A DNA stretch of 64,000 nt from NCBI GenBank assembly GCA_030680835.1, contig JAUXUD010000053.1, forward strand, positions 62,001 through 126,000, read 5' to 3'. The notes under the pieces are model-generated. The model saw nothing but the letters and a program-made list of their open reading frames with translations. It did no database searches and was not told where the DNA came from. Source of the DNA: Bacteroidota bacterium. GTDB taxonomy: Bacteria; Bacteroidota; Bacteroidia; UKL13-3. The translations under genes and the position numbers were made by a program. Positions 4,009 to 24,636 of this stretch are shown here, piece after piece. The first letter of the stretch is position 1. Every line of letters starts with the position of its first letter.

Positions 4009-5271
4009 ATGGTTGATGTAGTATTGGGCCTTCAATGGGGCGATGAAGGGAAAGGTAAAATTGTTGATGTGCTTACCCCAAAATACGATGTGGTTGCAAG
4101 GTTTCAGGGAGGTCCGAATGCCGGACATTCATTAGAATTTGGTGGCAATAAATATGTATTGAACACCATTCCGTCAGGTATATTTCATGAGCATTGCATC
4201 AATATTATCGGCAATGGGGTAGTGGTTGATCCGGTTCAGCTAAAGAAAGAAATTGAAAAGGCATCGGCTACCGGAGTTAATATTAAAAAGAGCCTTTATA
4301 TTTCGGAAAAAGCACATGTAATTTTACCCACACACCGCTTGGTAGATGCGGCCAGTGAAGCACATAAAGGGGAGCATAAAGTAGGTTCAACATTACGCGG
4401 CATCAGTCCGGCTTACCAGGATAAAATTGGCAGAAGCGGCATGCGTATCGGCGATTTATTAAGTGCCGGATTTATGCAAAAATACCAGGGCACTGTTGCC
4501 ATTCACAGAAAGCTGCTCGATTCGTTAAATTATGAATACAATCTGGCCGATCACGAAGCTGCATTTTTTGAAGCTGTTGAGTTTTTAAAGCAGTTTAAAA
4601 TTATCAATTCAGAATATTTTATAAACGATTTAATATCAAAAGGCAAAAAGGTTTTGGCCGAAGGCGCGCAGGGAACCTTATTGGATATTGACTTTGGTTC
4701 CTATCCTTTTGTAACCTCATCAAACACCATAACCGGTGGTGCCTGTTCGGGTTTGGGCATTGCACCCCAAAAAATAGAAAAAGTTTTTGGTATATTTAAA
4801 GCCTACGCAACCCGTGTGGGCAACGGACCTTTTCCCAGTGAGCAGGACAATGCAACCGGCGAAAAAATACGCACCCTGGGTCACGAATTTGGTGCCACCA
4901 CCGGCAGGCCCAGGCGCACCGGCTGGCTCGATTTGCCAACCCTCAGGTATGCAATCATGCTAAACGGCGTGAGCGATTTAATATGCACCAAAAGCGATGT
5001 ATTAAGTGGATTTGAAGAAGTGCTGGTTTGCGATGCTTACAAAATAAACGGACAGTTAAGCAAAGAAATTCCTTTTAATATGCAGGATGGCATATTGGAA
5101 CCTCAATACAAAACTTTTAAAGGCTGGGACGGCAATTTAAGCGTGATGCGCCAATACAGCGAGTTGCCCGAAACATTTAGAAACTACATGGATTTTGTGC
5201 AAGGCGAAATCGGTGTTCCTATTAATGTAATTTCGGTAGGACCCGATCGGGAGGAAACGATAATACGGTAG
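4009..5271 (+). CDS. purA: Adenylosuccinate synthetase
   Basis: This 420-residue enzyme makes adenylosuccinate from IMP, aspartate and GTP, the first committed step to AMP. The N-terminal GTP-binding loop GLQWGDEGKGKIVD contains the catalytic Asp and Lys. The GPNAGHS segment and a long C-terminal TTGRPRRTGWLDL stretch are family hallmarks. The length is typical. It follows the Fur-family gene with an 8-base gap. A tandem heptamer array starts about 10 bases after its stop codon. Confidence 0.96.
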   Translation: MVDVVLGLQWGDEGKGKIVDVLTPKYDVVARFQGGPNAGHSLEFGGNKYVLNTIPSGIFHEHCINIIGNGVVVDPVQLKKEIEKASATGVNIKKSLYISEKAHVILPTHRLVDAASEAHKGEHKVGSTLRGISPAYQDKIGRSGMRIGDLLSAGFMQKYQGTVAIHRKLLDSLNYEYNLADHEAAFFEAVEFLKQFKIINSEYFINDLISKGKKVLAEGAQGTLLDIDFGSYPFVTSSNTITGGACSGLGIAPQKIEKVFGIFKAYATRVGNGPFPSEQDNATGEKIRTLGHEFGATTGRPRRTGWLDLPTLRYAIMLNGVSDLICTKSDVLSGFEEVLVCDAYKINGQLSKEIPFNMQDGILEPQYKTFKGWDGNLSVMRQYSELPETFRNYMDFVQGEIGVPINVISVGPDREETIIR

Positions 5272-5280
5272 GGACGATTT

Positions 5281-5387
5281 ACGATGTACGATGTACAATG
5301 TACGATGTACGATGTACAATGTACGATGTACGATATACGATGTACAATGTACGATGTACGATGTACAATGTACGATGTACAATGTAT
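5281..5387 (+). repeat. Tandem GTACGAT/GTACAAT heptamer array, copy 1
   Basis: About 15 seven-base units alternate between GTACGAT and GTACAAT, with a few single-base variants such as GATATAC. The array sits directly after purA. The same array occurs at 24552-24636, 26062-26155 and, in the opposite orientation, at 54285-54320. Because 7 is not a multiple of 3, its translation in any frame gives peptides of the YIVHRT type; these are artefacts. Confidence 0.95.
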
Positions 5388-5766
5388 GGGGTGCTATTGG
5401 CAGCGGAGTCGAGAACAGTAATCAGAAAACTGTAATCGGATATCAATTCGAATAAACAATTTTTGCTATAGCAAAAAATTTCTTTAATTAACATTTCCCA
5501 AACTGCGTCAGCAGTGTCATCTCAGTAGCAAAAAAAGAATAGCCGAATAAAATTGAACAGCGTAGCTGTGGCATCTTTCTTCTTAAAGATCACACAAAAT
5601 TACCGTGCCGGAATGCGATGCAGGCATTCCAATAAAAAAACAAGGACTGTACCATAAAGATGCAGCTTGTACCTGGGTTTAACTGTATTGTACTAAAAGG
5701 AATGAGCCCATCCCCGAAAAAAAACAGGCATTGGGCGAAAAGAAACAGGCATTGCAATACCAAGAA
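5388..5766. other. Non-coding stretch after the heptamer array
   Basis: No supported gene is seen here. It contains an 18-bp perfect palindrome at 5460-5477 (TTTTTGCTA/TAGCAAAAA), which could be a weak terminator but is 190 bases past purA. It also has a short duplicated segment near 5717-5756 in which the ACAGGCATTG motif occurs twice. Confidence 0.6.
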
Positions 5767-6228
5767 ATGAAATTGCAAATCCCAAAAATGACAAGTAACC
5801 AGGTTACGGCTCGTGTTTTTTATGCGACGGCACATTTCCCCGAGGTGCAAAGCCACAACTTTGCTGCACCGGATGAAATAATTGTTGGAATAAGCCTCAA
5901 CATGGATGCCCCGGATGAGATAATTTTTGAATTTTGCCACATGATTGATGCCCCGGATGAGGTAAATTTTGCCCTGAGCCATTTGATTGAAGGTTTGGAA
6001 GAGATAATTTTTGAATTTTGCTTCAACATTGATGCCCCGGATGAGATAAATTTTGTTCTGAGCCATTTGATTGAAGGGCTGGAAGAGGTAATTTTTGAAT
6101 TTTGCCACAACATTGATGCGCCGGATGAGGTAAATATAGAGCTAAGTCATTTGATTGAAGAACCAGATGAAATGATTTTTGAATTATGCCACAACACTGA
6201 AACAATTTGTCAATTTATTAATCATTGA
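5767..6228 (+). CDS. Possible repeat protein of 14-residue acidic/hydrophobic units
   Basis: The plus frame is open from 5683 and closes at 6228. The first ATG is at 5767, giving 153 residues, and a TTG at 5731 is possible. Residues 33-144 are eight 14-residue units of two alternating types, such as DAPDEIIFEFCHMI and DAPDEVNFALSHLI or EGLEEIIFEFCFNI. The units are acidic at one end and hydrophobic at the other. There is no signal peptide and no recognised family. The minus strand is also open for 172 codons across the same repeats, which is expected when the unit length is a multiple of three, so coding on either strand is unproven. Confidence 0.35.
   Translation: MKLQIPKMTSNQVTARVFYATAHFPEVQSHNFAAPDEIIVGISLNMDAPDEIIFEFCHMIDAPDEVNFALSHLIEGLEEIIFEFCFNIDAPDEINFVLSHLIEGLEEVIFEFCHNIDAPDEVNIELSHLIEEPDEMIFELCHNTETICQFINH
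5863..6198. repeat. Eight tandem 42-bp repeats
   Basis: Eight units of exactly 42 bp lie head to tail from 5863 to 6198. The inner units group as an 84-bp higher-order pair: one half reads about GATGCCCCGGATGAG..., and the other carries TTTGAATTTTGCCAC. Unit 1 and unit 8 are the most diverged, the usual pattern for an array that grows in the middle. A single decayed unit lies at about 6522-6556. Confidence 0.9.
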
Positions 6229-6636
6229 GAAGATATGAAGGTGGTTAATTATTATTTTTTGAACCGGATTGCCATAACCTTGTAGGCCTGTTGAGTTAGG
6301 TAAATAATAGGGTATGAATAGCTACATCGGATAGCGAAATTTGGGAATCGCTTATGGAATTCAAAATGGCTGGACTTGCAACAAATTAAAACTCGTTTTG
6401 ATGATTTGGATAACTTATATTAAACATATACATTTGGGTATGGAATGGAGATACCAATCATGTCTTTCAGTATTGCCACGACATGATTGGTGTATTCATA
6501 CATATAAGAGAGTTAGCGCTCATGTTTTGGAATTATGCTACATGATCAATGAATAGCAAATGGACAAAGAAACTTACTTATTAAAATGAATAAATACCCA
6601 AGTAGAAAAGCCAATGCTTTACTTAAAAGATCGTCA
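6229..6636. other. Gene-poor stretch with a 12-bp inverted repeat and a stray repeat unit
   Basis: No convincing gene is seen. A 71-codon plus-strand frame at 6341-6556 starts with TTG and has no recognisable family. Its last residues, HVLELCYMINE, resemble the 14-residue units upstream, so it may be a decayed extension of that repeat region. Arms at 6453-6464 and 6480-6491 are a perfect 12-bp inverted repeat around 15 bases. Confidence 0.5.
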
Positions 6637-7302
6637 ATGAAAGTTCATTTTCTGATGATTTTAATTTTAGCCACTGCTTCCACTGCTAAATGTCAATCCC
6701 AAAAGTTCGATAAGGTGAAACCCGTTCACTTTAATGGCTCAATTTTCAAAATTCCGCTTCCTTCCCAGTATGACTATTTTCATAACTCAATTTATAGGAA
6801 TATGAAAATGTCAGAGTTCACAAAAAATAATTTACTACCAGGAAATGGAATAATGGAATTGGAAATATTAGTTCCACGAGGTAATAGCGATCCTATCATT
6901 CAACTATATAGTTTTAAGGAGTTGGACAGTTTAAAGCTATCGAACGAGAATTTTATTGGCTACAAAAAATTTATCAAAACAAACATAACTCCGAGCAAGT
7001 ATGACAGCTTATCAAGGACTGTTTTTAGTGACAGCTTAGTAAAAAAAGAACTGGGAAACCTCTCGACAGACTATTCTTTAACTCAAACAATTTTAGAGAC
7101 CGAGAATAGATTAACAACTGGCATGTTGATTAGAGGACACGTTAACAATAAGTTTCAGAAGTTATTTATTATTTCAAATTATTTATTCATCAATGAGACT
7201 ATTATTGTTGTAAGATTTACTTATAGTGAATATCCTAAAAGTATACGGGCCGCGGTACAATTCCAGAACGATTATATTTCTGAACTATTAAAACTTAAAT
7301 AA
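6637..7302 (+). CDS. Secreted protein of unknown function
   Basis: The frame is open from 6586, but the ATG at 6637 begins a clean signal peptide (MKVHFLMILILATASTAKC), so that start is preferred, giving 221 residues. A Cys at the end of the hydrophobic segment could be a lipobox cysteine or sit next to an ordinary signal peptidase site (AKCQS). The mature protein has no motif I recognise. The next small membrane protein begins one base after its stop, so the two form an operon. Confidence 0.65.
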   Translation: MKVHFLMILILATASTAKCQSQKFDKVKPVHFNGSIFKIPLPSQYDYFHNSIYRNMKMSEFTKNNLLPGNGIMELEILVPRGNSDPIIQLYSFKELDSLKLSNENFIGYKKFIKTNITPSKYDSLSRTVFSDSLVKKELGNLSTDYSLTQTILETENRLTTGMLIRGHVNNKFQKLFIISNYLFINETIIVVRFTYSEYPKSIRAAVQFQNDYISELLKLK

Positions 7303-7303
7303 G

Positions 7304-7555
7304 ATGAAGAGAAAAGGATTGAGAAATGTCGGGATTGCAGTAATACTATTTCAACTATGTGGTTATTACGGAGGCATCCCTATACCATTTTCAAACATTA
7401 ATTTTGACAAAGTTGATTCAGCGAACATGCCTTTCCTAATATCAACAATACTTGCTGAAAACTTTTGGCTTCTCTTGGGAATAATACTTCTGTCAATTTA
7501 TTGGTTCATTAATCGAAAGCCAAACAAAGCTATTGGGACGACCGAACCCAGTTGA
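7304..7555 (+). CDS. Small membrane protein with two transmembrane segments
   Basis: This 83-residue protein has hydrophobic segments at about residues 7-25 and 50-68 and a charged C-terminus. No family is recognised. It starts one base after the preceding secreted-protein gene and is probably translated with it. Confidence 0.55.
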   Translation: MKRKGLRNVGIAVILFQLCGYYGGIPIPFSNINFDKVDSANMPFLISTILAENFWLLLGIILLSIYWFINRKPNKAIGTTEPS

Positions 7556-7577
7556 GGGAATAATACATCATATAATT

Positions 7578-8162
7578 ATGGATTGGGGACTAAAATCATA
7601 TAAAGACATTGCGGAATTTGCTTCTTACCTGGTGACAAGCTTGTCACTAATGGGCTTATTTATAGTTTATCGGTTCTCAAAAAAGCAAATACATTTCTCA
7701 ACTATGGAGAAATGTATTAACGACTTTAAGGAATTGGACAATTTAGATAGTAAAGCTTCTCAGAAAGATATAATGAAATATATCGAGCTTGTTAACGAGG
7801 AGTTCTTTTATTTGGAGAATGGCTATTTACAAGCCGCGGTGGCGATCGAATGGATTGACGGCATGATTGACTTTTTACCTTTTTTGGATAAGTCAGGTAA
7901 CATCAAAAACCAAAGATTTGAGCTAATGGTGTCTGGGGAAGTAGTTAACACATATTTAATTAATTATCCAAGAGTATTAAATTCTATAAAATTGAAAACG
8001 GAGATCGACTTTGATAAAATCCATTCATCGAGTTTTGCAGAAAGGAAAAATGAACGCGATAAATTAATAACTCAAATTGTTTCGAATTTGAAACTCAGCA
8101 GGTTTGCTTTATTAAAAAAGTGTGCTTTATATAAACTGAGATGTGAAATTAAAAGGCGTTAA
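7578..8162 (+). CDS. Membrane-anchored protein of unknown function
   Basis: The frame opens at a TTG (7533) overlapping the previous gene, but the ATG at 7578 is a better start and gives 194 residues (MDWGLKSYKDIAEFASYL). One transmembrane helix lies at about residues 15-33, followed by a long charged, probably helical cytoplasmic part. It resembles the unknown short proteins often found in defence and accessory islands, but no catalytic motif is visible. It is the last gene before the first attC-like element. Confidence 0.55.
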   Translation: MDWGLKSYKDIAEFASYLVTSLSLMGLFIVYRFSKKQIHFSTMEKCINDFKELDNLDSKASQKDIMKYIELVNEEFFYLENGYLQAAVAIEWIDGMIDFLPFLDKSGNIKNQRFELMVSGEVVNTYLINYPRVLNSIKLKTEIDFDKIHSSSFAERKNERDKLITQIVSNLKLSRFALLKKCALYKLRCEIKRR

Positions 8163-8290
8163 TTCAATCAACAATACAATCGTATCGCTGCGAAAATATT
8201 GAGGCTTGACTATTTAGTAATTAAGACGCTTTTAAGAGGCCGACAAATTGACGCCGATAGTAAAATTGACGTGCTGGTGTAAAACACGAA

Positions 8291-8422
8291 GCGCTAACAC
8301 AGCATATAAGTTATTTTGGTATTGGCTTTCACCGTAAATTTTTCTACTTTCGTTCATTCAGTGTATGCGGACACTTTTGTGGTATCACATCCAAAACAAC
8401 CCATATGCTGAAACCGTTAGTG
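8291..8422 (+). repeat. attC-like recombination site A
   Basis: A 132-bp imperfect palindrome. The left end has CGCTAAC (8292-8298), one unpaired A, then CAGCATAT (8300-8307). The right end has ATATGCTG (8403-8410), five spacer bases AAACC, then GTTAGTG (8416-8422). The inner stem continues with TTATTTTGG against CCAAAACAA. This is the R''-L''...L'-R' layout of integron attC sites, with the asymmetric spacer and the GTTR core. Its core sequence is shared with sites B, D and E, but the outer arms are specific to this copy. Confidence 0.75.
8345..8352 (+). promoter_or_regulatory. Conserved promoter-like box in attC-like site A
   Basis: TACTTTCG differs by one base from the Bacteroidota -7 consensus TAnnTTTG. 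The equivalent position holds TACTTTCG in site B (8973-8980), TATTTTCG in D (11604-11611) and TACTTTAG in E (13644-13651). A TTGGC lies about 20-25 bases upstream in A and B. Conservation in the unpaired middle of the element suggests that each cassette may carry its own promoter. Confidence 0.35.
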
Positions 8423-8467
8423 GTAACAAGGCGGACAGACATTTCGGTAGACAAAAAACATTCGGGC

Positions 8468-8875
8468 ATGGACTTTAATACAATAATCAAAGACAAATTT
8501 TCGGGACTTCTGGAGAATATTAGTTTTAAAATCCTCGAGGACAATAAAAATTCCGTGACGTTCAAGTCTGACGCTGTAACTTTTAAATTCACCTACGATC
8601 CTTTCGCATTTGAGTGCAACTACTTCGTTAATCTCAACACTAAGGACACTACATATGAAAATAGTTTCGTTGAAGGTTATTTAAACATAAAAGACGAGCC
8701 GGTTTTTGGACTTAAAACACAAGACGAGAAAATTGACTTATGGGCTACTCGAAAGTATAGTTATTTCATGACTTTCAAAGACACATTATTAACCGGTGAC
8801 AAAAAATTCTTCTCGGAGCTCAATTCATACTTTGACAAAGATTGCATTGAATACAACAAAAAAATAAATCCGTAA
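8468..8875 (+). CDS. Cassette ORFan protein, 135 residues
   Basis: The frame is open from an ATG at 8405, but that ATG lies inside the right arm of attC-like site A. The ATG at 8468 (MDFNTIIKDKFSGLLENI) is the likely start. The protein is soluble and rich in aromatic residues, with alternating strand-like segments. It has no recognised family. It is the only gene between sites A and B, so it looks like a single-gene cassette. A strong hairpin follows the stop codon directly. Confidence 0.6.
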   Translation: MDFNTIIKDKFSGLLENISFKILEDNKNSVTFKSDAVTFKFTYDPFAFECNYFVNLNTKDTTYENSFVEGYLNIKDEPVFGLKTQDEKIDLWATRKYSYFMTFKDTLLTGDKKFFSELNSYFDKDCIEYNKKINP

Positions 8876-8906
8876 ACAGGCGGACACTTAAGCGTGTCGC
8901 ACCTGT
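8876..8906 (+). terminator. Hairpin directly after cassette gene
   Basis: Arms ACAGG..GACAC (8876-8887) and GTGTC..CCTGT (8894-8906) pair around a TTAAGC loop, with a small internal bulge. The stem starts one base after the stop codon. No U-tract follows, so it may protect the 3' end of the transcript rather than terminate on its own. Confidence 0.5.
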
Positions 8907-8920
8907 GTTAGCCTTGCAAC

Positions 8921-9049
8921 CACTAACAGCGTACATAATATATTTTGGTATTGGCTTTCATGATAAATTATCTACTTTCGTTATTCAGTTTAAGTGGACA
9001 GATTTGTGGCATCACATCCAAAACATTTTATGTACGCAAACCGTTATGG
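8921..9049 (+). repeat. attC-like recombination site B
   Basis: A 129-bp imperfect palindrome. The left end has CACTAAC (8921-8927), one unpaired A, then GCGTACATAA (8929-8938). The right end has TTATGTACGC (9028-9037), spacer AAACC, then GTTATGG (9043-9049). The 10-bp L arms pair perfectly yet share no sequence with those of site A, while the inner core (TATTTTGGTATTGGCTTTCA and beyond) is nearly the same. The conserved structure with changed sequence is typical of attC sites. Confidence 0.78.
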
Positions 9050-9207
9050 CTCAGTTGGCTTTTTAAATTTCGGGACGCATTTGCTTAGTGGGTTTATGTT
9101 TTTCGTTGAACCATTTTGTTAAAGCTAAAACAAAAGTTTTACGCGACGTATATCGGCGTTGGTTTAAGGTTTCTGGCGGACAGTTCGAGAACATCTGTCT
9201 ATCCACC

Positions 9208-9498
9208 TTACTTACAAATAATTTCGGCAATAGGTATTTGAGTAGCGGAAATCATAAGGGCAATAAATTGCAATACGAATCCAACGGAAAGGATGAACAT
9301 TCCACGTCTGAATAATTTTGTTTTATGTGGGTTTTCTGATAATTCTTTCAAGTCTTCTTCATTAGGAAGCATTATTGAAGGAGGCTGAATTTTCGGACTG
9401 GCTCTAAACATCATAACGACACCTATAAAATTGGTAGATAGACCGATAATATTTAGAAGGAGAATAAGTAAAGTAAACATAAGTAATATTTTGAGCAT
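9208..9498 (-). CDS. Small membrane protein, two transmembrane helices
   Basis: The ATG at 9498 starts directly into a hydrophobic helix (MLKILLMFTLLILLLNIIG). A second helix lies near the C-terminus (MFILSVGFVLQFIALMI), and a charged loop joins them. This gives 96 residues; an upstream ATG at 9564 would add 22 residues. No family is recognised. It is oriented against the other cassette genes, which integron arrays tolerate. It lies between sites B and C with the next gene. The 158 bases between site B and this gene contain no supported feature. Confidence 0.5.
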   Translation of the reverse strand: MLKILLMFTLLILLLNIIGLSTNFIGVVMMFRASPKIQPPSIMLPNEEDLKELSENPHKTKLFRRGMFILSVGFVLQFIALMISATQIPIAEIICK

Positions 9499-9622
9499 GT
9501 AAATGTAAAAACATTTTATCAATTTTTTGCCCTCCGACAATCTTAGTGATAGCTGAATTATCATAAAATGTGTATCATTTTTTTATATTTGAATGGAGTT
9601 GGTATTTTAATTAAAAGTAATT

Positions 9623-10318
9623 ATGGAAAATTTTAACTTTAAACCGTATATTAAATACGGAATATTTCTATTGTGTATTGTTTTATTGATGCTACCTTTT
9701 CATTTTGTGCCATCTCATAAGATGGTTTTTCCTAAGGAGCACTTTACATTTAGTAACACTTTTATATTTCAAAGTGATATTGATAATCTTATTGAAAGGT
9801 ATAATAACGAAGCATTCTTGGGGAAAGCTATTTTAGCCAGCGACCCCTTATGCAAAAAGTTAATGGAGAAAGGGATCATAATTTCAGAGGATAAAAAAAC
9901 TGCGGATATGCCGACGCCCTCACAACCTTTGAAGTCAGTTAATACAACTTATAAAATAGGAGAAGAAATTGTATATGGCACCTCTCATATTATTACAGTT
10001 ACAAAGTATGACCCCGATACACATTTAGAGTTTTTAGACCCTGAAAAAGGTAGAAAGTACGTTTCGGTCGAAATAATATATAACAACATATCAGACCATT
10101 CTCAGGGATTAGATGTAATGGGCATAAATGTTTATGACGATGAAGGATATATTTATGATTACGCAAGCTTGACTAAACAACCGCAGTTCTCTTTTATTTC
10201 AGAAATAAATTCAGGGCGCAAACAAAAAGGCTGGATAACATTTGATGTTCCAAAAACAGCTAAAAATTTAAAGTTACAGCTACCTCAAGAAGTCTCTGTA
10301 CTACTTACAAAACAATAG
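9623..10318 (+). CDS. Membrane-anchored protein with DUF4352-like domain
   Basis: This 231-residue protein has one N-terminal transmembrane segment (residues 11-30, FLLCIVLLMLPFHFV). Its C-terminal half looks like the DUF4352 immunoglobulin-like fold: GRKYVSVEIIYNNIS, a DDEGYIYDY strand, and KQKGWITFDVPKTAKNL near the end. Such domains occur in extracytoplasmic lipoproteins and stress proteins of unknown role. It shares the B-C cassette interval with the minus-strand membrane gene. Confidence 0.6.
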   Translation: MENFNFKPYIKYGIFLLCIVLLMLPFHFVPSHKMVFPKEHFTFSNTFIFQSDIDNLIERYNNEAFLGKAILASDPLCKKLMEKGIIISEDKKTADMPTPSQPLKSVNTTYKIGEEIVYGTSHIITVTKYDPDTHLEFLDPEKGRKYVSVEIIYNNISDHSQGLDVMGINVYDDEGYIYDYASLTKQPQFSFISEINSGRKQKGWITFDVPKTAKNLKLQLPQEVSVLLTKQ

Positions 10319-10632
10319 CAATTACTTAGAGTTATCTCGACATATGCACTTCTAAATGTAAGATCAACGTGGAACAAATTTGTTTAGATTGTAATTCACT
10401 GTACCGCGACTCGCTTACCATTTCAAAGTAATTTTTCAAAGCCAAATTTATAATGGCAACAATTAGTTTACCGTGACAATTTCGCCGTCCAAAGCACGTT
10501 CGGCATGACCTATTTGTTTTGTCGTGCATTTGTTAAAACCATGACAAATATGCAATCAACGAGAGTTCCCTACGCCCGTAAAATCAGCTTCCCAGGACAA
10601 TTACCAGCGACTGGTTTGCGCAGCCAACCGTG
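10319..10632. other. Non-coding part of the B-C cassette interval
   Basis: No supported gene lies here. Short open frames at 10332-10529 (minus) and 10505-10729 (plus) lack family similarity, and the second runs into attC-like site C. No inverted repeat or RNA gene was recognised. Confidence 0.5.
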
Positions 10633-10764
10633 CCATAACAGCAGGCACCAGAAAGTGGCGGTCTCATTGTTCGCTGGACAATTTTGTGTATGTTTGAAAT
10701 GCAGTTTCCCAGATGGTGTTTTGTGGTAACTTCGCCACCTTCTGGTGCCTGCAAAACGTTAACC
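10633..10764 (+). repeat. attC-like recombination site C
   Basis: A 132-bp palindrome with the longest stem of the set. The left end has CCATAAC (10633-10639), one unpaired A, GCAGGCACCAGAA (10641-10653), a one-base mismatch, then GTGGCG. The right end has CGCCAC (10733-10738), the mismatch, TTCTGGTGCCTGC (10740-10752), spacer AAAAC, then GTTAACC (10758-10764). Nineteen of 20 paired positions match. The core differs from A and B but keeps fragments such as TTTTGTGGTA. Confidence 0.8.
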
Positions 10765-10819
10765 CAAATGGTGAAAACTCATATTTTCAATAATTGATAA
10801 TTTTTATTATTTTTACAAC

Positions 10820-11011
10820 ATGAGTACTATTTTAATAAAAGCGGACAAACAGAGTAATAAGATACTATCCGATCTGGCTCAAAAACTTGGTGGAAATGTA
10901 ATTGACATGAAAGATGATCAATTTGAGGATTTCTTGCTTGGCACCATGATGGATAAAGTAAAAACTGGAAAAACCGTATCAAAAGCTACTATTTTAAAGA
11001 AATTAAGATAG
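10820..11011 (+). CDS. Small antitoxin-like protein (solitary type II antitoxin)
   Basis: This 63-residue protein (MSTILIKADKQSNKILSDLA...) resembles the short antitoxins that pair with RelE/ParE-type toxins in Bacteroidota: an N-terminal strand, a helix, then a degenerate VKTGKTVSKATILKKL tail. The family call is from memory of typical sequences, not a search. Two bases after its stop codon is a start codon followed by only 11 toxin-like codons (11014-11049), so its toxin partner is broken. Confidence 0.6.
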   Translation: MSTILIKADKQSNKILSDLAQKLGGNVIDMKDDQFEDFLLGTMMDKVKTGKTVSKATILKKLR

Positions 11012-11013
11012 AA

Positions 11014-11049
11014 ATGATTGTTGAATTCGACAATTCATTTGAAAACTAA
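11014..11049 (+). pseudogene. RelE/ParE-like toxin reduced to 11 codons
   Basis: An ATG two bases after the antitoxin stop starts the frame MIVEFDNSFEN and then TAA. RelE/ParE toxins of Bacteroidota often begin with a strand like MxVEFDxSFEKSLKK, so this is the expected first strand and helix start of a toxin, cut short. The sequence that follows encodes an unrelated membrane protein. This is inferred from position and the 11 residues only. Confidence 0.45.
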
Positions 11050-11050
11050 T

Positions 11051-11578
11051 ATGATTGGTAAATTATTTGAAAAGAGTCAGACCTTAATTACTTCATTGAC
11101 CGAAAAGGAGGTTTTTAAAAAATTAGAAAATCACTCTGTTGGTGGTAGCTTGAATGACCAAAGTCTTAAAATATTTTTCAAAGGTAAATTCAACTTAGAG
11201 CACCATGAGTTCAGATTACTACAGGTTTTTGACTATGGCCCAAGGAATCAAATCAGACCAGAGATAATTGGTTTTACTGAACTAACTGGAGACGATTTGA
11301 CTGTAAATTTGAAAATACGACTGCCAAAAGAACTTGATGTATTGTTGGATTTTGCTGCAATATTGAATATAACATTTCTTATCGTGTTAGTTCTTGTTCC
11401 GCTACCTGAAGATATTCCAAAGCGTTTCTTTTTCATAGGACTTCCTATTACGATGCTCGTATTCTATTTAATGTGTAAGCTATTTTTTAACTTCAAAACT
11501 TCTGATTGCATAACTATAATAGCGCGTATAATAAACGCCAGAAAAACGAATTTTGACAGCGTTCATAATTTAATTTGA
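11051..11578 (+). CDS. Membrane protein of unknown function
   Basis: The frame is open from 11018, but the ATG at 11051 (MIGKLFEKSQTLITSL) is preferred because it follows the toxin relic stop; this gives 175 residues. The N-terminal 100 residues are soluble and strand-rich. Two transmembrane helices follow at about residues 100-118 and 127-147. No family is recognised. The gene's 3' end runs into the decayed left arm of attC-like site D. Confidence 0.55.
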   Translation: MIGKLFEKSQTLITSLTEKEVFKKLENHSVGGSLNDQSLKIFFKGKFNLEHHEFRLLQVFDYGPRNQIRPEIIGFTELTGDDLTVNLKIRLPKELDVLLDFAAILNITFLIVLVLVPLPEDIPKRFFFIGLPITMLVFYLMCKLFFNFKTSDCITIIARIINARKTNFDSVHNLI

Positions 11579-11681
11579 TTTTTGTAGTTTTCGATAAATA
11601 TTCTATTTTCGTTAATGCAGTTTCGAGGATCAGTTTCACGAAATTAAATCCAAAACAACTCATGCCCTCGGAGCGTAATGG
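11551..11681 (+). repeat. attC-like site D (decayed)
   Basis: This 131-bp copy is recognised by the shared core (TAAATATTCTATTTTCGTTAATGCAG and ATCCAAAACAACTCATG) and by its length and position. The right end ATGCCCTC-GGAGC-GTAATGG keeps the L'-spacer-R' order, but GTT has become GTA. The left end TTTTGAC-A-GCGTTCAT only weakly pairs with it. It overlaps the 3' end of the preceding gene and is probably no longer recombinogenic. Confidence 0.5.
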
Positions 11682-11698
11682 CAATTTCAAAATTAATT

Positions 11699-12583
11699 AT
11701 GAATCAAAAGGAAGTATTGGCAAAAGCATCGGAATATCTTTCCACATTTAAGGATACTGTTATAGATGTATTAGAAATTACCGAGCCACCAGATCAAGAA
11801 TATGCAATTCATTTAGCAAAGACAGTTTCAAAGCTTTCTCCACTTGTTGGAAATATGATTGAATATCAAGTCTGTGCTGAATTGAACAAATTAGACTGGA
11901 ATGGACTCGGGGAATGGGAGCGACAAGATCCGGGTTTCCCAGACACAATCTTTAAATCTAATTTTGAGTATCAACCAGGAATAGAAATAAAAACATGGTT
12001 TCCAAATGCTACAGAAATTACAGCAAGATTTAAAGATAGTGTCAGCTTCTTTGATAATGAACAAATAAATGTTGCGGTTGTTGCGTGGCTACCCGAAAAT
12101 ATTATTTATGGAAAACCGAAAATAATCGATATTTGGACCTGGAGCGCAAAGAGCCTGGCCAATGCTAGAGATTCTCATTATCATAAGCCCCCCAGCTATA
12201 TAGTACTTGAACCTGAAGATACGAGTTTAAGGACCTCAAATCTGCAACAGACAAATACTAATGGCTATAAATTTCAGGGTTCAATGGTTGAACTTGCTGA
12301 AGCAAAAAAAATGGTTTTGGAATTCGGAGATTTTTATGAAAATTACAGTTCAGAAAAGTTGTATCAGGACCTCACCAAAAGACTTTTTAAGTCATTTCCA
12401 TATCGCTTAGATACAAATTTTGCCAAGATAGACCGGATTATGCATCCAAGCTTGGAAGAATTTAAGAAAAGGGTGTTACTTACAGAAATGAATGGTCACA
12501 CTATAAAACACTGGTCGCATTTACTCGGTCAAAAAAACAAAGATATTATGCAACTAATTCGAGAACTTTTACCCGCGAGGTGA
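11699..12583 (+). CDS. Putative type II restriction endonuclease, PD-(D/E)XK fold
   Basis: This 294-residue protein (ATG at 11699; an upstream ATG at 11678 lies inside site D) carries a PD at residues 81-82 and an EIK at 96-98, separated by 13 residues. That spacing fits the PD-x(n)-EXK catalytic core of restriction enzymes. It converges on a DNA methyltransferase gene, and their 3' ends overlap by 38 bases, which supports a restriction-modification pair. It should cut unmodified DNA at the site protected by its partner. The recognition sequence cannot be read from sequence. Confidence 0.65.
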   Translation: MNQKEVLAKASEYLSTFKDTVIDVLEITEPPDQEYAIHLAKTVSKLSPLVGNMIEYQVCAELNKLDWNGLGEWERQDPGFPDTIFKSNFEYQPGIEIKTWFPNATEITARFKDSVSFFDNEQINVAVVAWLPENIIYGKPKIIDIWTWSAKSLANARDSHYHKPPSYIVLEPEDTSLRTSNLQQTNTNGYKFQGSMVELAEAKKMVLEFGDFYENYSSEKLYQDLTKRLFKSFPYRLDTNFAKIDRIMHPSLEEFKKRVLLTEMNGHTIKHWSHLLGQKNKDIMQLIRELLPAR

Positions 12584-13562
12584 CTTTTGCGGTATTTAGA
12601 AAGCGTTTAATTGCATTTTTATAAATTTCAGGATCAATTTCACTAGCATAAAAATATCTATTTAGATTGTTTGCTGCCAATGAAACCGTACATAAACCTC
12701 CAAATGGCTCCCATATTATGTCATTAATATCACTGGTACTTTTGATAATAATTTCTAACAAGTTTAATGGTTTCTGATTACTATGAATTGTCTTAAGTCC
12801 ATTTTTTAATCTTTCAATTCCGTTTAACGGAGGTGTATTCCATACATTGGTGATGCCATGTATGTAATTGAACTTGGAACGATATTGTTCCCATTCAAGG
12901 GAAGATAATGATTTCCTCCCATCTACGCTGAAGTATGGTCGGCCATTTGGAATGCCATTTGCGTTTGCATAGCTTACCAATTTTTGAAATGCTTCAGCTG
13001 GCGGGAAATACCACAAATGGCATTGGGTTAAATATTTTCTTGTTGCAGCATTTTTAACCTCACATGCTTGGTTTGCTTTAGACAACGGTAAACCAGATCT
13101 ACGCCATTCATACCGCAACCAATCCTTGAGACTTAATTCTTGATTTTCTTTTGTAAGTATCCTATTTTTACGAACATATTGTACACAAACCTCCGTAACT
13201 TTTGGAAAATGACGGATCGTTTTAGAATTTACATTGCCCGCAATATGAGCTATTCCCTTGTTCCAAGTATGACAATTGACAAAATCCCAGCCATTAGAAA
13301 CTATTTCGTTGTGGACTGTGGCCCACCCTTCCTCGGTATTCCAAAACCACAATGTTGTGTTCGGCTGAGACCTTTCATACCAAATTTTTATAAAAGGTTT
13401 GTACCATTCCGACAGTCCTTCCGTAGTCAATAAATCTCCCTTGTATCCATTAATTCCGTATGGGCCATCAGACACAATCACAGTAGGACTATTCCAAGTT
13501 CCTACACATTGTAGAAAATCTTCGTTGAAAATAACACCATTTGAAAATTTTGTAGATTTCAT
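12546..13562 (-). CDS. DNA methyltransferase, beta-class N6-adenine/N4-cytosine type
   Basis: The frame opens at 13607, inside attC-like site E, but the ATG at 13562 (MKSTKFSNGVIFNEDF) is the likely start, giving 338 residues. The catalytic motif IV is SDGPYG at residues 31-36, a variant of DPPY. The SAM-binding motif I, EPFGGLC, is at 285-291 and is preceded by HSNQKP. Motif IV before motif I marks the beta class. It pairs with the convergent endonuclease gene. The second residue of the DPPY box is Gly instead of Pro, which is uncommon but seen in some restriction-system methylases. Confidence 0.8.
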   Translation of the reverse strand: MKSTKFSNGVIFNEDFLQCVGTWNSPTVIVSDGPYGINGYKGDLLTTEGLSEWYKPFIKIWYERSQPNTTLWFWNTEEGWATVHNEIVSNGWDFVNCHTWNKGIAHIAGNVNSKTIRHFPKVTEVCVQYVRKNRILTKENQELSLKDWLRYEWRRSGLPLSKANQACEVKNAATRKYLTQCHLWYFPPAEAFQKLVSYANANGIPNGRPYFSVDGRKSLSSLEWEQYRSKFNYIHGITNVWNTPPLNGIERLKNGLKTIHSNQKPLNLLEIIIKSTSDINDIIWEPFGGLCTVSLAANNLNRYFYASEIDPEIYKNAIKRFLNTAKVTSRVKVLELVA

Positions 13563-13591
13563 AACCACAACAAAAATAGTAAATTTATTGC

Positions 13592-13720
13592 CACTAAAAA
13601 AGGGCATAAATTATTTTGATTTTATGGTTCCCGGTAAATTATCTACTTTAGTTATTGCAGCTTTTGGGTACAGATCTGTGGCATCTCATACACAACAACT
13701 CATACCCTCGAACATTAGCA
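13592..13720 (+). repeat. attC-like site E (partly decayed)
   Basis: A 129-bp copy. The left end has CACTAAA (13592-13598) and then AGGGCATAAATTATTTTG. The right end has ACAACTCATACCCT, spacer CGAAC and ATTAGCA (13714-13720). The L arms pair through GGGCAT/ATACCC with one wobble, but AAC has become AAA and GTT has become ATT. The core (CGGTAAATTATCTACTTTAG, ATCTGTGGCATC) matches A and B closely. Confidence 0.6.
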
Positions 13721-13726
13721 CTAATT

Positions 13727-13856
13727 GCTGCAGATCAATTGAAGCCGAAGAGGTAATTTGAATTTATTTCTTTTCCTTTACATTTCGTTTTACAGAAAGT
13801 TTTGTGGCTTCTAATCCGAAACTACTTAAGTAAGGTATTTCGAATAACACCCATAA
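13727..13856 (+). repeat. Vestigial core of a sixth attC-like element
   Basis: The segment around 13777-13825 (TTTACATTTCGTTTTACAG, then TTTTGTGGCTTCTAATCC) aligns with the core of sites A, B and E. The outer arms no longer pair. It follows site E directly with no gene between them, so it may be an old empty cassette end. The boundaries are estimates. Confidence 0.35.
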
Positions 13857-13884
13857 CGCTTCCCAAAAAAACAAATTATCTTAT

Positions 13885-14406
13885 ATGAAATACTTCTTTT
13901 TATTTATACTTTTCTATTCCCTTCACATAACTGCTCAAGCGCAAAAAATTGATTTTTGCCGGATGCTCAAAGCCGTGCAATCCAATTATTGTCAGGGTCT
14001 CGAATTGTATAGTGATTCCTGTGTTGCACAAAAAATCAGGAGAAATCAGGCCATTGAAGATAATTATAATGCCCTGTTGGATATCACAAACAAAACCGGA
14101 TTTCCCAACCGGCAAAACCATCCTAAGGATTCTTGTGTTCACGACTTTACTTTAGTAACCTTAATTCATATGGTTCAATCAAAACCGGAATTAATATTCA
14201 ATGAAAGTATAATCACCCTGTTTGAGGAAGAAATCAAAAAAGAAAATTTAAAAAAAGTAATCTTGTTGTCCATGTTTAGTGTATACTCCAGGAACAGTTA
14301 CCCAAAAGAAAAGGATAGAGCTATGGTAGAATTGGCCATAAAGAAATGGAAATTGGAGCGTGAAATGAATCAGGGAATTGAAATAGAGTATTATCCTGAA
14401 CTTTGA
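13885..14406 (+). CDS. Secreted protein of unknown function
   Basis: This 173-residue protein has a clear signal peptide (MKYFFLFILFYSLHITAQA, cleavage before QK). The mature part contains four cysteines and a helical C-terminus. No family is recognised. The same reading frame stays open past the TGA stop into a second stretch that looks like a decayed coding region. Confidence 0.6.
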   Translation: MKYFFLFILFYSLHITAQAQKIDFCRMLKAVQSNYCQGLELYSDSCVAQKIRRNQAIEDNYNALLDITNKTGFPNRQNHPKDSCVHDFTLVTLIHMVQSKPELIFNESIITLFEEEIKKENLKKVILLSMFSVYSRNSYPKEKDRAMVELAIKKWKLEREMNQGIEIEYYPEL

Positions 14407-14700
14407 TTTTGTTTTAGCCTGGCATCTGCTCATCGAGTCTGCATTCTAACCGCTGTTTTTTATCAAAACAAAATAGATCAGTATAAATTTGCTTTTACCA
14501 ATTATTATCGCAAGTTTTACATGCCGGATTGGGGATGGGTTTTTTCACGGTTTGGCATTGACAGCTATGTTTGACAGACGCAGTTTAACCCTGACATGAA
14601 AATATATCGTGACAACAAAACAACTTTTATTTATTATTACAAAGACAAGAATGGCGAATTTGTTTTAAAGTTTTCTGTAACACCGAACATGTATGAATAA
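14407..14700 (+). pseudogene. Decayed coding remnant with in-frame TGA
   Basis: In the frame of the preceding gene, 14407-14571 reads as protein-like sequence (for example QYKFAFTNYYRKFYMPDWG), then stops at TGA 14572-14574. It continues in the same frame (QTQFNPDMKIYRDNKTTF) to TAA at 14698. The composition is protein-like on both sides of the stop. There is no start codon with a signal peptide, so this looks like a broken secreted-protein gene rather than recoding. Confidence 0.45.
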
Positions 14701-14756
14701 TCATCTGGCAATTTTGAAAAACTTAGAAAGCATAAATTAATCAAAAAATAACAACC

Positions 14757-15428
14757 ATGAACAATATTAAATTAATTTTTATCGGACTTCTGATTTTGAA
14801 TTCGGGAACAATTTATGGACAAACCAATAGGTTTGACATTGGAATAGAAGGAAGCCCAGGTTTAACTTTTCTGAGGGGTAATGACTTTATAGATAAATAC
14901 CATAATACGACAATGAGTTTTTCAGGTGGATTTTTTTTTCAGTTTAATTTTAAGAAGATTATTTCTCTGCACACAAATATTGCTTATGAAAGAAAGGGTT
15001 CTATAACTACTGCTCAGGCAACCAACATGTATGGCAACTCAATTGGTGAGGTGACTATAAACACAAACTTTGACTATTTGACTATACCAATTCTACTTAG
15101 GGCCACATTTGGCAAGAAGGTTCAATTCTTTGTAAATGGGGGACCCTATTTTGGGTATTTACTCAAGAATACTTTTGTAAGCAAAGGGGACAACATTCCC
15201 AGAACAACAGGTGACAATACAAAGTTCAACAAACGATTTGACACAGGAATTTCGACAGGACTGGGACTTTCAGTTCCTGTTAAGACAAGATTTGCTGTAT
15301 CCTTTGAAATTAGAAATAATCTTGGGCTTTATAATGTAAGTGCAGGTCCGGTTGTAAACAATGGAACAATTAAAACAAATTCAACAAATTTTCTTTTCGG
15401 TTTCATATACAGACTTGGACTTAGGTAA
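14757..15428 (+). CDS. Outer-membrane beta-barrel protein, PorT-like family
   Basis: This 223-residue protein has a signal peptide (MNNIKLIFIGLLILNSGTIYG) followed by alternating amphipathic strands with many aromatic and glycine residues, ending in an aromatic-rich strand (FLFGFIYRLGL). This fits the Bacteroidota outer-membrane beta-barrel (OMP_b-brl_2) family. The role is unknown; members are often small porin-like proteins. It stands alone after the pseudogene. Confidence 0.75.
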   Translation: MNNIKLIFIGLLILNSGTIYGQTNRFDIGIEGSPGLTFLRGNDFIDKYHNTTMSFSGGFFFQFNFKKIISLHTNIAYERKGSITTAQATNMYGNSIGEVTINTNFDYLTIPILLRATFGKKVQFFVNGGPYFGYLLKNTFVSKGDNIPRTTGDNTKFNKRFDTGISTGLGLSVPVKTRFAVSFEIRNNLGLYNVSAGPVVNNGTIKTNSTNFLFGFIYRLGLR

Positions 15429-15494
15429 AGTATATGCGGATGTATAGAACTAAAAATTCTGATTCATCATATGGATTAATTCTTATATTTGATC

Positions 15495-16466
15495 ATGTTT
15501 ATGAAAATTCGTTATATTGGCATAGCCTTCTTGCTGCTGGTTTTTTCGTGTACTAAAATCCTTAAAAACGATCCACCGAAAAGACCTCCAACCCAGCCTC
15601 CTGTTGCGGCTTTTAGCTACTACACCGAATCGGAGGGAGAGGCTCCGGCCCGGGTTCATTTTTATAACAGTTCAAAAGATGCCGATTCATGTTTTTGGGA
15701 CTTTGGCGATACAAGTTTTTCAAGAGAATTCTCACCTATACATGAGTTTAAAAGTCCGGGTAACTTTAAGGTAAGACTGATTGCCAAAAATTGGCTTGGA
15801 TCAGATACCGTTGAGGATTACATTTTGATTACTAAAGGCATTGTGGCCAATTTTTCCTTTACCGGAGATGGGGCGCATGTGCCTGCAAAAATCAGGTTCA
15901 CGAATCTGTCTCAGAATGCGAATTCATATGATTGGGATTTTGGTGATGGTACCTGGGATAACTATGCAGACCCCGTTCATACTTATTACCAAAGCGGAAA
16001 CTATCAGGTTACACTTAAGGCAATGCATTATATCCGTCAAACAAAGACAATCAGCAAAACGGTTCATATTTTGCCTGAGTTCACATCGGCCACTTTAACT
16101 CAAATGCAGTTAACCTCCTGGCCATTCAACAGACTTAATGGAAGCAGCTGGGACAGTGAACCGGGACAATCATCACCCGACATTTACCTGCTTATTGAAG
16201 ACTCGGCCGGTACGCAATTGTACAAAACGGCAACGGTTAATAACCTGATGCTGCCAAGCACCTATACAACATCATTTGTACTCAATAAAAACATGTGGAA
16301 CAAACGGATAATAATAAAAATGATGGATGAAGACGGTGCAAACGCAGAGGTAATGGCATCGTCCTGGATCCGTATATCCGATTATGGTCCCGGAACCTAT
16401 CCTGAACAGATTGTAATCAATAGTCAGTATATAGGACTTAAACTAAACTTTTCATGGAAAGAGTAA
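15495..16466 (+). CDS. Lipoprotein with two PKD domains
   Basis: This 323-residue protein starts at ATG 15495 or 15501. The signal peptide ends in FLLLVFSC, a lipobox whose Cys would be lipidated. Two PKD domains follow, with the motifs WDFGDTS (residues near 75) and WDFGDGT (near 155), each preceded by a YDW/CFW-type strand. PKD domains are adhesion or spacer modules on the cell surface. The C-terminal 110 residues form a domain I do not recognise. Confidence 0.78.
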   Translation: MFMKIRYIGIAFLLLVFSCTKILKNDPPKRPPTQPPVAAFSYYTESEGEAPARVHFYNSSKDADSCFWDFGDTSFSREFSPIHEFKSPGNFKVRLIAKNWLGSDTVEDYILITKGIVANFSFTGDGAHVPAKIRFTNLSQNANSYDWDFGDGTWDNYADPVHTYYQSGNYQVTLKAMHYIRQTKTISKTVHILPEFTSATLTQMQLTSWPFNRLNGSSWDSEPGQSSPDIYLLIEDSAGTQLYKTATVNNLMLPSTYTTSFVLNKNMWNKRIIIKMMDEDGANAEVMASSWIRISDYGPGTYPEQIVINSQYIGLKLNFSWKE

Positions 16467-16530
16467 ACAGGGTGATTGCGATAATTTCTATTGATTTTGA
16501 TTTAATAACGGAAAATAGAAATATTATAAT

Positions 16531-17115
16531 ATGAATTGGGAAACATATATTGCATTTGGCGACAGTATTACAATTGGTGCAAGAACCTATTTGGGGTATC
16601 CTGAATTGGTTGGCAATAAACTTAGTGACAGATTAAATAAACAATGGAATGTCATTAATCATTCTGTAAGTGGCTTTAAAGCTATTGACCTGGCAAGATA
16701 TATCGACAAACATTTTTATTCTCTTCAGGAACACAAATCGTCTGTTACATCTGTTTTAATTGGAACAAACGACATTAAAGATAAAACGTCTGTTGAGGAT
16801 TTTAAAATTGCCCTGAATCAGATTATTATCAAAACAAAATTACTGACGACAAACAACAATGTAATTATTTTTTTGATCCCTGAATTTCATAAAGGAATCA
16901 TGTATCCCTATTCTATTGAAATGAATGCATCAATTTCTATTTTCAATAAAGCGATATGTCAATTAGTAAAAGAACATGATTTAAGGATGTTGGAACTGAA
17001 TCACACGGAAAAAGATTTTTTAGACGGAGTACATTTAAACCGGGTAGGAATTGAAAATTTTTCGGATCAGATTTCCAGATACATCCTTAAAGATAAAGGA
17101 ATGGACTTTGGCTAA
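16531..17115 (+). CDS. SGNH/GDSL-type hydrolase
   Basis: This 194-residue protein has the SGNH family blocks: AFGDSIT (nucleophile Ser at residue 12), a glycine block around SVSGFK, GTND near residue 76, and DGVHLN near 168 with the catalytic Asp and His. It is probably an esterase or acyl/acetyl hydrolase acting on a sugar or lipid. No signal peptide is visible, so it should be cytoplasmic. Its stop overlaps the next glycosyltransferase start by 8 bases, which suggests a joint role in polysaccharide building. Confidence 0.85.
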   Translation: MNWETYIAFGDSITIGARTYLGYPELVGNKLSDRLNKQWNVINHSVSGFKAIDLARYIDKHFYSLQEHKSSVTSVLIGTNDIKDKTSVEDFKIALNQIIIKTKLLTTNNNVIIFLIPEFHKGIMYPYSIEMNASISIFNKAICQLVKEHDLRMLELNHTEKDFLDGVHLNRVGIENFSDQISRYILKDKGMDFG

Positions 17116-18283
17116 GATATTGTTTATTACATCACGTTTCCCTTACCCTCTGAATAAAGGAGATAAATTAAGGGTGTATTTTCAGCTAAAACATCTGTCA
17201 GAAGAAAACGAAGTACATTTGGTTGCAATCAATGAAACGAAAGTTTCTGATAAACATCTTATAGCGTTATCTCCATTTTGCAAATCCATCCATATGTTTG
17301 TTCTGCCAATTCACAAAAGGATATTCCAGTTATTCTTAAGTCCTTTTAAAGGGATTCCATTGCAAGTAGCTTATTTTTTTAATAATAGAATAAAGAAAAA
17401 AATTGAAGAACTAACGAATGAAATTGCACCCGACCATATTCATTGCCATCTTATCAGGACAACGGAATATATAAAAGATATTGGAGGCGTCAGCAAATCA
17501 CTTGATTTCATGGACGCATTCGGAAAAGGTATGGAAAAAAGGCAGGTTATTGAGTCCAATATTTTTAAGCGCATACTTTATACCTACGAAAAAAATCAAC
17601 TTTATAACTATGAGGCTAAGGTATTTCATTTCTTGGATAAATTTTCCATCATTTCGAATCAGGACAAAAATCTGATCAAAAGTCCGAGGGCCAATGAAAT
17701 AAATGTTATTCCCAACGGCGTAGACTTTGAAACGTTTTATCCCCGGGCGGAAGAAAAAAAATATGACCTGTTATTTATGGGAAATTTAGGTTATCCGCCT
17801 AATATTGATGCTGTTCTGTTTCTCTGTAATGAAATAATTCCACTTGTAGAAAAAGACAAACCTGATATCAAGGTGCTGATTGCAGGTATTAACGCTCCGA
17901 AACAAATACAGAAACTTGCCTCCGGGAAAATTAATATTATAGATGATTTTGCAGACATAAGTACCTCGATAGCGATTTCAAAGATCATGCTGGCTCCAAT
18001 GAAAATAAGCATCGGTCTTCAAAACAAAATATTACAAGCAATGGCAATGAAAACACCTTGCATTGTAAGCACTTTATGTAATAACGCTATAAATGCGCCC
18101 AATAACAAAGCGATAATTGAAGCCAATACGCCCATCGAATTCTCAAAAGAAATTATCACATTATTAAATAATGAAAACAAAGCTGCAGAAATAGGGCAAG
18201 AAGCTTATAAATTTGTAAGGGAATACTTTTCCTGGGAAAGACAAAATGATTTATTTGCGAAACTAATGCTCAATCAGAATTGA
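17108..18283 (+). CDS. Glycosyltransferase, GT4-like (TIGR03087-like sugar transferase)
   Basis: The likely start is TTG at 17108 (MAKILFITSRFPYPLNKGDKLR). It is preceded by AAAGGA at a good distance and overlaps the SGNH gene by 8 bases; this gives 391 residues. The N-terminus with the glycine-lysine loop and the C-terminal GT-B segment (LLFMGNLGYPPNIDAVLF, then KILQAMAMKTPCIVS) match glycosyltransferases that add sugars in exopolysaccharide pathways. The donor and acceptor are unknown. The frame itself runs from 17051 without an ATG in a sensible place. Confidence 0.8.
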   Translation: MAKILFITSRFPYPLNKGDKLRVYFQLKHLSEENEVHLVAINETKVSDKHLIALSPFCKSIHMFVLPIHKRIFQLFLSPFKGIPLQVAYFFNNRIKKKIEELTNEIAPDHIHCHLIRTTEYIKDIGGVSKSLDFMDAFGKGMEKRQVIESNIFKRILYTYEKNQLYNYEAKVFHFLDKFSIISNQDKNLIKSPRANEINVIPNGVDFETFYPRAEEKKYDLLFMGNLGYPPNIDAVLFLCNEIIPLVEKDKPDIKVLIAGINAPKQIQKLASGKINIIDDFADISTSIAISKIMLAPMKISIGLQNKILQAMAMKTPCIVSTLCNNAINAPNNKAIIEANTPIEFSKEIITLLNNENKAAEIGQEAYKFVREYFSWERQNDLFAKLMLNQN

Positions 18284-18412
18284 AAGAATCAACTATTAAA
18301 ATGCTACATTTTATTTTGAATACAAAAAATATCAACAGGGTTAAATTGGAGTACAATGAAGGATTAGCCAAAATGATTGGTATGGAAATATTTGGTAACA
18401 GAAAAGAAAAAA

Positions 18413-20031: not shown

Positions 20032-20060
20032 GTAGATTTGATATTAAGAATAAAAACAAT

Positions 20061-21097: not shown

Positions 21098-21198
21098 TTT
21101 TAAATGCTTTTTTTAATAGAAGTTGAGAAACCTCAAATGATTTCTGCCTGCTTTGGTTGGTTGGATAGAAACCTCACTAATTGATTTTCATATAAGGA

Positions 21199-24551: not shown

Positions 24552-24636
24552 GACGATGTACAATGTACGATGTACGATGTACAATGTACCATGTACGATG
24601 TACGATGTACAATGTACGATGTATAATGTACGATGT
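24552..24636 (+). repeat. Tandem GTACGAT/GTACAAT heptamer array, copy 2
   Basis: About 12 seven-base units of GTACGAT and GTACAAT with variants (GTACCAT, GTATAAT). The array lies about 10 bases after the hybrid kinase stop codon and before the convergent Pif1-like gene. Confidence 0.93.

Follow-up and report, generated by a model that had tools for sequence, protein, structure and literature searches.

Around 100 loci with tandem heptamer arrays are present in the genome of one uncultured Bacteroidota bacterium, and most of these arrays begin just past a stop codon and are read in the direction of the gene that ends there. The reading that we tentatively prefer, while stopping somewhat short of calling it probable, is that the arrays form a dispersed, lineage-specific heptanucleotide satellite with the unit grammar KTAYRAK (mainly GTACGAT and GTACAAT) that arises at gene ends and extends from there into intergenic DNA. 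The period of 7, the common unit grammar, the location of the 5' end close to the stop codon, the gene orientation, the facing pairs and the absence of GTACRATx3 from 18 species of the same genus are direct observations. The abundance of seven-base repeats in bacteria is the wider question to which these arrays speak.

The window, i.e. the whole stretch of 64,000 nucleotides that was analysed, covers positions 62001-126000 of its contig in a genome of 4.30 Mb and 104 contigs. Genes were called by our own hexamer script, in which stop codons are exact and start codons approximate. The 12 loci matched by one window protein all belong to Bacteroidota MAGs. A sequence-only reading of the window had named four arrays and two short remnants; the arrays were confirmed, and the remnants proved to be short degenerate stretches. 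The repeats and their neighbours are as follows.

4009-5271, plus strand: purA (adenylosuccinate synthetase)
5272-5386, plus strand: heptamer array of 16 units, directly after the stop codon of purA
22040-24541, plus strand: TPR/histidine-kinase gene
24553-24636, plus strand: heptamer array of about 12 units, 11 nt past the stop of the gene at 22040-24541 (plus), which is convergent with the gene at 24696-26036 (minus)
24696-26036, minus strand: PIF1-like helicase gene, flanked on either side by heptamer arrays
26062-26155, plus strand: heptamer array of about 13 units in a divergent gap, on the start side of the gene at 24696-26036 (minus)
41163-41195, plus strand (assigned by eye): AGTAART heptamer array, 25 nt past the stop of the gene at 40121-41137 (plus)
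41217-41239, minus strand: short degenerate KTAYRAK array (remnant), 2 nt past the stop of the gene at 41242-42543 (minus), outside the counted set
43510-43565, minus strand: degenerate heptamers of the GTATGAG, GTATTAA and GTACRAT types (remnant), upstream of the gene at 43602-44555 (plus), outside the counted set
53036-54271, plus strand: ClpX-like gene, convergent with the gene at 54322-55347 (minus) across the array at 54287-54319
54287-54319, minus strand: heptamer array of 4-5 units, 2 nt past the stop of the gene at 54322-55347 (minus)

The array at 26062-26155 is an exception to the stop rule. The array at 41163-41195 is not of the GTACRAT type and lies outside the counted set; it and the array at 41217-41239 face each other. 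The window has 51 copies of GTACRAT where 13.05 would be expected, and none of 100 shuffles reached 51.

Counting and mapping across the genome, as proposed with the sequence-only reading, yielded 567 overlapping matches of GTACRATx2 in 4.3 Mb (345 on the plus and 222 on the minus strand) and none of the reversed control; GTACRATx3 gave 252 and 162 matches on the two strands. A left-edge pattern matched 108 times genome-wide, some of these matches being interruptions inside one array. A period scan of 954 kb of the genome returned 122 segments of period 7 and 107 of period 14, the remaining periods between 4 and 15 yielding 0-4 each; a control with one random sequence per stretch gave 0 segments. 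With their head-to-tail excess at many intergenic loci, the arrays are dispersed heptanucleotide tandem repeats of the LSSR type. Heptamers are the commonest category of long simple sequence repeats in most genomes (Mrazek et al. 2007, cited in PMC4679880), but the passage of PMC4679880 concerned gives no placement rule for them. The near-exclusive period of 7 would fit the earlier suggestion of a specific expansion mechanism. Microsatellite growth after loss of mismatch repair was rejected as a source, given two MutS_V matches and a period of 7 that stands almost alone among periods 4-15. The ends of several contigs fall within or close to arrays (the end of C1, the start of C34, the end of C15), so that the arrays probably broke the assembly and their true lengths may exceed the assembled ones; one array locus is present at two contig ends.

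The 1,226 units belong to one in-register KTAYRAK family comprising GTACGAT (463), GTACAAT (200), GTATGAG (132), TTATGAG (59), TTACGAT (40), TTACGAR forms and others, and unit types switch in register within single arrays. Along the arrays, WTACGAD lies nearer to the gene than GTACRAT in 25 cases and farther away in 6. The first description had the G/A position alternating between neighbouring units. The position does vary within arrays, but strict alternation was not upheld: neighbouring units had the same state in 310 of 510 pairs from 64 arrays (0.608, against 0.629 after shuffling). Autocorrelation at lags 2-6 was close to shuffled values and slightly higher at lag 4 (0.678 versus 0.641, with 4.4% of shuffles as high), and a 21-bp higher-order unit was therefore rejected together with alternation. 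The G/A order along arrays looks random, and the argument against simple microsatellite growth that had been drawn from alternation fails with it. T, A and A occupy positions 2, 3 and 6 in 97-99% of the units, a figure inflated by framing the units on the motif. This conservation could be taken to mark the arrays as candidate binding sites for a DNA- or RNA-binding protein, which we regard as very improbable, since copy number varies widely, different units have a common placement and the idea comes without a candidate protein.

Placement was assessed for 150 arrays in the same 954 kb, which consist of stretches chosen around arrays. None of the 150 lay more than half inside a gene call, with some overlapping the last codons or the stop codon, and 116 of the 143 arrays flanked by ORFs on both sides (seven at stretch ends were dropped) lay behind a stop; the dispersed, non-random intergenic placement, mostly at gene 3' ends, that had been read from the window thus extends to the genome. 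For these 143 arrays the median distance to the ORF was 6 nt at the 5' end versus 115 nt at the 3' end, the 5' end being closer in 123 and farther in 20. Sixty-six arrays had their 5' end at most 5 nt from an ORF, compared with a mean of 9.2 and a maximum of 17 in 200 rounds of random placement. The 116 arrays with a 5' neighbour read in array direction (65 convergent, 51 tandem) had its stop at a median of 4 nt. A separate count, overlaps included, gave 116 arrays with a sense gene upstream, of which 63 begin less than 5 nt and 98 fewer than 20 nt behind the stop codon. The other 27 of the 143 have the start side of an antisense gene at their 5' end, with a loose fit (medians of 53 and 69.5 nt).

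Arrays also occur in inverted pairs. Neighbouring arrays within 300 bp were facing (plus, then minus) in 25 cases, on the same strand in 5 and diverging in 0, i.e. all 25 opposite-strand neighbours face each other. The unit strand was that of the nearer gene in 60 cases and differed in 5 in convergent gaps, the corresponding numbers for tandem gaps being 51 and 17; 10 cases fell in divergent gaps. The proposed check for enrichment at convergent gene ends was positive: among gaps of at least 30 bp, arrays were held by 46 of 95 convergent, 60 of 327 tandem and 8 of 121 divergent ones, which serves only as a contrast between classes because the stretches were chosen around arrays. TGA stops were in register with the array (unit positions 4-6) in 17 of 25 cases, while TAG (33) and TAA (35) stops showed no comparable peak, and a stop-codon register for all genes was rejected as clear for TGA only. 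The position after a stop was taken by 82 of 93 arrays bearing GTACRAT and by 34 of 50 arrays of other unit types. Arrays of GTATGAG, TTATGAG and other units also tend to follow stops, though with more exceptions, which makes it unlikely that the arrays serve to present a fixed GTAC site. What the first description lacked were the additional in-register unit types, the inverted pairing and the link of arrays to the stop codon and the direction of the gene.

Two further ideas about the arrays were rejected. Seeding from a general post-stop motif would leave its mark at array-less gene ends, where the first 20 nt showed only a mild excess of sense 5-mers (12.6 versus 6.9 per kb; 12.2 versus 7.5 in congeners). 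Replacement of intergenic DNA, as opposed to insertion into it, is not general, since gaps with arrays have about the length of array-less gaps once the arrays are subtracted (medians of 84.5 versus 112 nt for convergent, 139.5 versus 127 for tandem and 175 versus 183 for divergent gaps). At 54287-54319, however, the gap is 50 nt, no longer than the 51 nt of the closest congener, G018.

Under the satellite reading, units would multiply by slippage or by recombination of hairpin-prone single strands, TGTACR being self-complementary so that the dominant unit could fold on itself. Arrays would be tolerated at the start of 3' UTRs, with the stop codon as the limit that selection on the protein sets to their 5' edge. 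Their polarity might stem from a strand-asymmetric process at gene ends, for example the exposure of the sense strand where ribosomes leave the RNA, and no specific function would be needed. As RNA, the stretch 5272-5387 is predicted to form a rod (-45.7 kcal/mol, z -4.75), and such folding of GTACRAT may favour slippage, although the majority of G at the R position makes G.U rather than A-U pairs. Folding does not set the placement, because units that do not fold on themselves show the same placement. A purely neutral satellite, however, need not hug stops within a few nucleotides or always face inward, and the 27 start-side arrays also speak against this reading. Counts of MutS, reverse transcriptase and RAYT link no gene to the expansion: the genome has a single reverse transcriptase, and none of the three gene types sets it apart from its relatives. 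REP/BIME palindromes moved by RAYT were rejected as well, the arrays being tandem heptamers and the genome holding 3 Y1_Tnp matches compared with 0-6 in congeners.

Folding is also the starting point for the view that the arrays may be functional RNA rods in 3' UTRs that protect transcript ends or terminate transcription. GTACRAT arrays are predicted to fold better than shuffled sequences (median z of -2.28 in 75 arrays), as are arrays of other units less markedly (median z of -1.81 in 44 arrays), and terminator-like hairpins are rarer at convergent ends with arrays (7 of 52) than at those without (30 of 110). At tandem ends, however, the difference nearly vanishes (11 of 44 versus 63 of 229). 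Arrays of other units are weak in absolute terms, with a median of -0.096 versus -0.32 kcal/mol per nt, and mixed arrays fold no better than shuffles (z 0.42, 18 arrays). An apparent excess of pairing among non-palindromic arrays (27 of 50 versus 19 of 82) was dropped, as the stretches had been fetched around GTACRAT arrays; with this sampling bias removed, other-unit arrays are not paired more often (3 of 24 versus 22 of 95 gaps). A role as RNA rods seems quite improbable to us.

The polarity itself can be viewed from the opposite direction. The termination factor Rho uses C-rich YC sites, and a polymerase that enters an ORF from intergenic DNA would transcribe a C-rich, G-poor, rut-like strand of the array, so that Rho might stop antisense or read-through transcription at the gene edge. 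By composition only, RNA running into the ORF has more C than G in 148 of 150 arrays, compared with 161 of 320 array-less first 50 nt after stops, which nevertheless largely follows from the way the sense strand is defined. Such entry barriers would cover the stop-side sense arrays together with the start-side antisense ones, the facing pairs and the convergent enrichment, and the weak dependence on unit sequence and the geometry described in passages on Xanthomonas (PMC4692102) would fit as well. On the other hand, GTACAAT has no YC dinucleotide on the entering strand, the units GTACAAT, TTACGAA and TTACGAT have equal C and G, start-side arrays a few nucleotides before start codons would attenuate their own gene too, and the period of 7 is left unaccounted for. 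We consider this explanation unlikely, if worth keeping in mind.

The closest precedent is provided by the heptamers of Xanthomonas and Nostoc, GGGAATC and GGGGA(C/T)T, which according to the relevant passages of Rehm et al. (2015, PMC4692102) are mostly intergenic, those on the sense strand being close to the stop codon and those on the antisense strand close to the start. For Xanthomonas GGGAATC, these passages give facing pairs (70 and 75 cases), a nearer 5' neighbour (28 versus 160 nt) and a link to G-quadruplexes. The KTAYRAK arrays have in common with them the intergenic location, the 5' end adjoining an ORF and the facing pairs, but the unit is another one, and the stop side dominates here (116 of 143), whereas the Xanthomonas strands are about equal between aligned ORFs as far as those passages go. 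With no GGG in the KTAYRAK units, a three-tetrad quadruplex is not formed: none of the 40 commonest unit types includes GGG, and GG arises where GTATGAG units adjoin in tandem but not in GTACRAT. Because GTACRAT arrays hold no GG yet show the same geometry at ORF edges, quadruplexes cannot be its general cause, and since the Xanthomonas heptamers are unrelated in sequence, the position rule seems independent of repeat sequence. It is doubtful, in our opinion, that bacteria of separate phyla share one undescribed process depositing heptamers of any unit at ORF edges with fixed polarity, be it an entry barrier or a telomere-like healing of broken ends that are later joined head to head. The heptamer geometry as such is known from Xanthomonas; new here are the KTAYRAK family and the orientation rule at stop codons. 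In the literature searched, we found no description of KTAYRAK arrays, nor of the rule outside Xanthomonas and Nostoc. A non-quadruplex family with the same polarity as quadruplex-forming repeats removes the quadruplex from the general explanation and raises the testable questions of what sets the polarity and whether it affects transcription at gene ends, for which a species with around 100 loci in one genome, and with a dominant triple GTACRATx3 found in 0 of 18 congeners, is well suited.

A second comparison concerns TAACTGA repeats, reported from Beggiatoaceae, Cyanobacteria and some Bacteroidetes, in the latter beside other heptamer repeats (MacGregor 2015, PMC4679880). Both families are dispersed, intergenic and patchily distributed heptamers. 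In the Guaymas strain, however, TAACTGA is described in the passages concerned as occurring in two to six copies mostly just upstream of start codons (PMC4679880), in contrast to the stop side here. With TAACTGA not among the 40 commonest units and a mainly stop-side placement, membership of the KTAYRAK arrays in this family was rejected.

Some arrays coincide with differences in gene order. Arrays might be scars, laid down by copying from other arrays or in a telomere-like manner where DNA has broken or genes have newly come together, and then joined head to head. The array at 5272-5386 is the left edge of a 15.9-kb stretch (5272-21198), and in 10 of 10 congener loci that span the site purA adjoins the gene at 21199-21924; the right edge of the stretch, however, has no array. 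Heptamers also stand at both ends of a two-gene stretch (41242-43393) that has no match in 9 relative loci with both outer genes, these being about 30-150 nt apart in 8 of the 9 and about 800 in the other (L146). Adjacency was kept with G018 at 4 of 16 array gaps versus 30 of 51 others (Fisher p 0.023), and at 3 of 15 versus 25 of 43 for gaps of at least 60 bp (p 0.016). Against this, array-less convergent gaps are also poorly conserved (2 of 10), and the contrast weakens in non-convergent gaps of at least 60 bp (3 of 10 versus 23 of 35, p 0.07) and in gaps of at least 100 bp (3 of 14 versus 18 of 32, p 0.05). The array at 54287-54319 sits at an old convergent adjacency, the genes lying within 0-191 nt of each other in five congener loci, and Rehm et al. 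report raised stability near repeats (PMC4692102). Arrays do mark some new gene junctions, while their general origin as scars strikes us as improbable. Within the 15.9-kb stretch lie genes for a UDP-GlcNAc 2-epimerase and a GDSL lipase. The PIF1-like helicase gene at 24696-26036 is unmatched next to the 22040-24541 gene in all 8 congener loci that extend a further 1.5 kb.

Turning to relatives, GTACRATx3 gave 0 matches in 18 same-genus genomes, and among 22 other relatives it matched one genome, with 6 overlapping matches spread over three loci. In G021, which belongs to another genus, two of the three GTACGAT loci were inspected; each is flanked by convergent genes and lies some 10 nt from the stop of the co-directional gene. 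At the threshold of 16 used for the scan above, no period-7 segments were found in 340 kb and 138 kb of relatives, and at a threshold of 14 four heptamer arrays were found in 682 kb of G018. That the closest congener also has a few heptamer arrays, mostly of other units, counts against the satellite reading. One array in G018 (C10:8704-8838, L286) consists of 135 bp of GGGAGAT on the minus strand, some 24 nt away from the stop codon of the gene with which it reads. Among 395 Bacteroidota genomes, KTAYRAKx3 occurs in 62 including the present one, which has 806 matches compared with 51 in the next-highest; the reversed-pattern control matches 44 genomes by count from the table, partly through the heptamers GAACATT, GAGTATT and TAACATT. 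Arrays of these three were seen in G116, G360 and G219, those of GAACATT in G116 reaching about 160 bp. Taken together, heptamer arrays are widespread in the phylum, and the present genome is the extreme case for the KTAYRAK grammar.

In other genera, the matches listed (60 stretches) comprised 64 clusters, of which 21 were stop-side, 37 start-side and 6 inside gene calls. Among these matches, 12 of the 21 stop-side clusters lay at most 20 nt from the stop, several clusters being near-copies, and 17 of the 37 start-side clusters lay, by reading, at most 20 nt from the called start. The stop-side preference of the present genome is thus not general, and the recurring feature is a 5' end near an ORF. 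For the satellite reading, the 37 start-side clusters among the 58 intergenic ones listed are a difficulty, as a process confined to 3' UTRs leaves them unexplained.

Other repeats were noted in passing. In the window, a tandem repeat of 84 bp and 42 bp lies at 5851-6200 within an ORF call (5788-6228), and a purine-rich repeat of period 8/16, GGGTAGGA-like on the minus strand, lies at 29673-29741 right behind the stop of the gene at 29745-30368 (minus); its GGGTAGGA-like k-mers rank high behind array-less stops, perhaps partly owing to the locus itself. Across the window and stretches L049-L125 of the genome, the palindrome CCGATAGCTATCGG has 22 copies, 14 of them at most 150 bp from an array, and a GCAAATTGCATTTGC-like palindrome has 12 copies, 10 of them near arrays, both counts standing without a random control. 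At L064 6199-6423, copies of a CTGCCGTAACTTTAGTGAAGGCAG-like palindrome interrupt GTACRAT arrays, a pattern that would suit an insertion of either element into the other.
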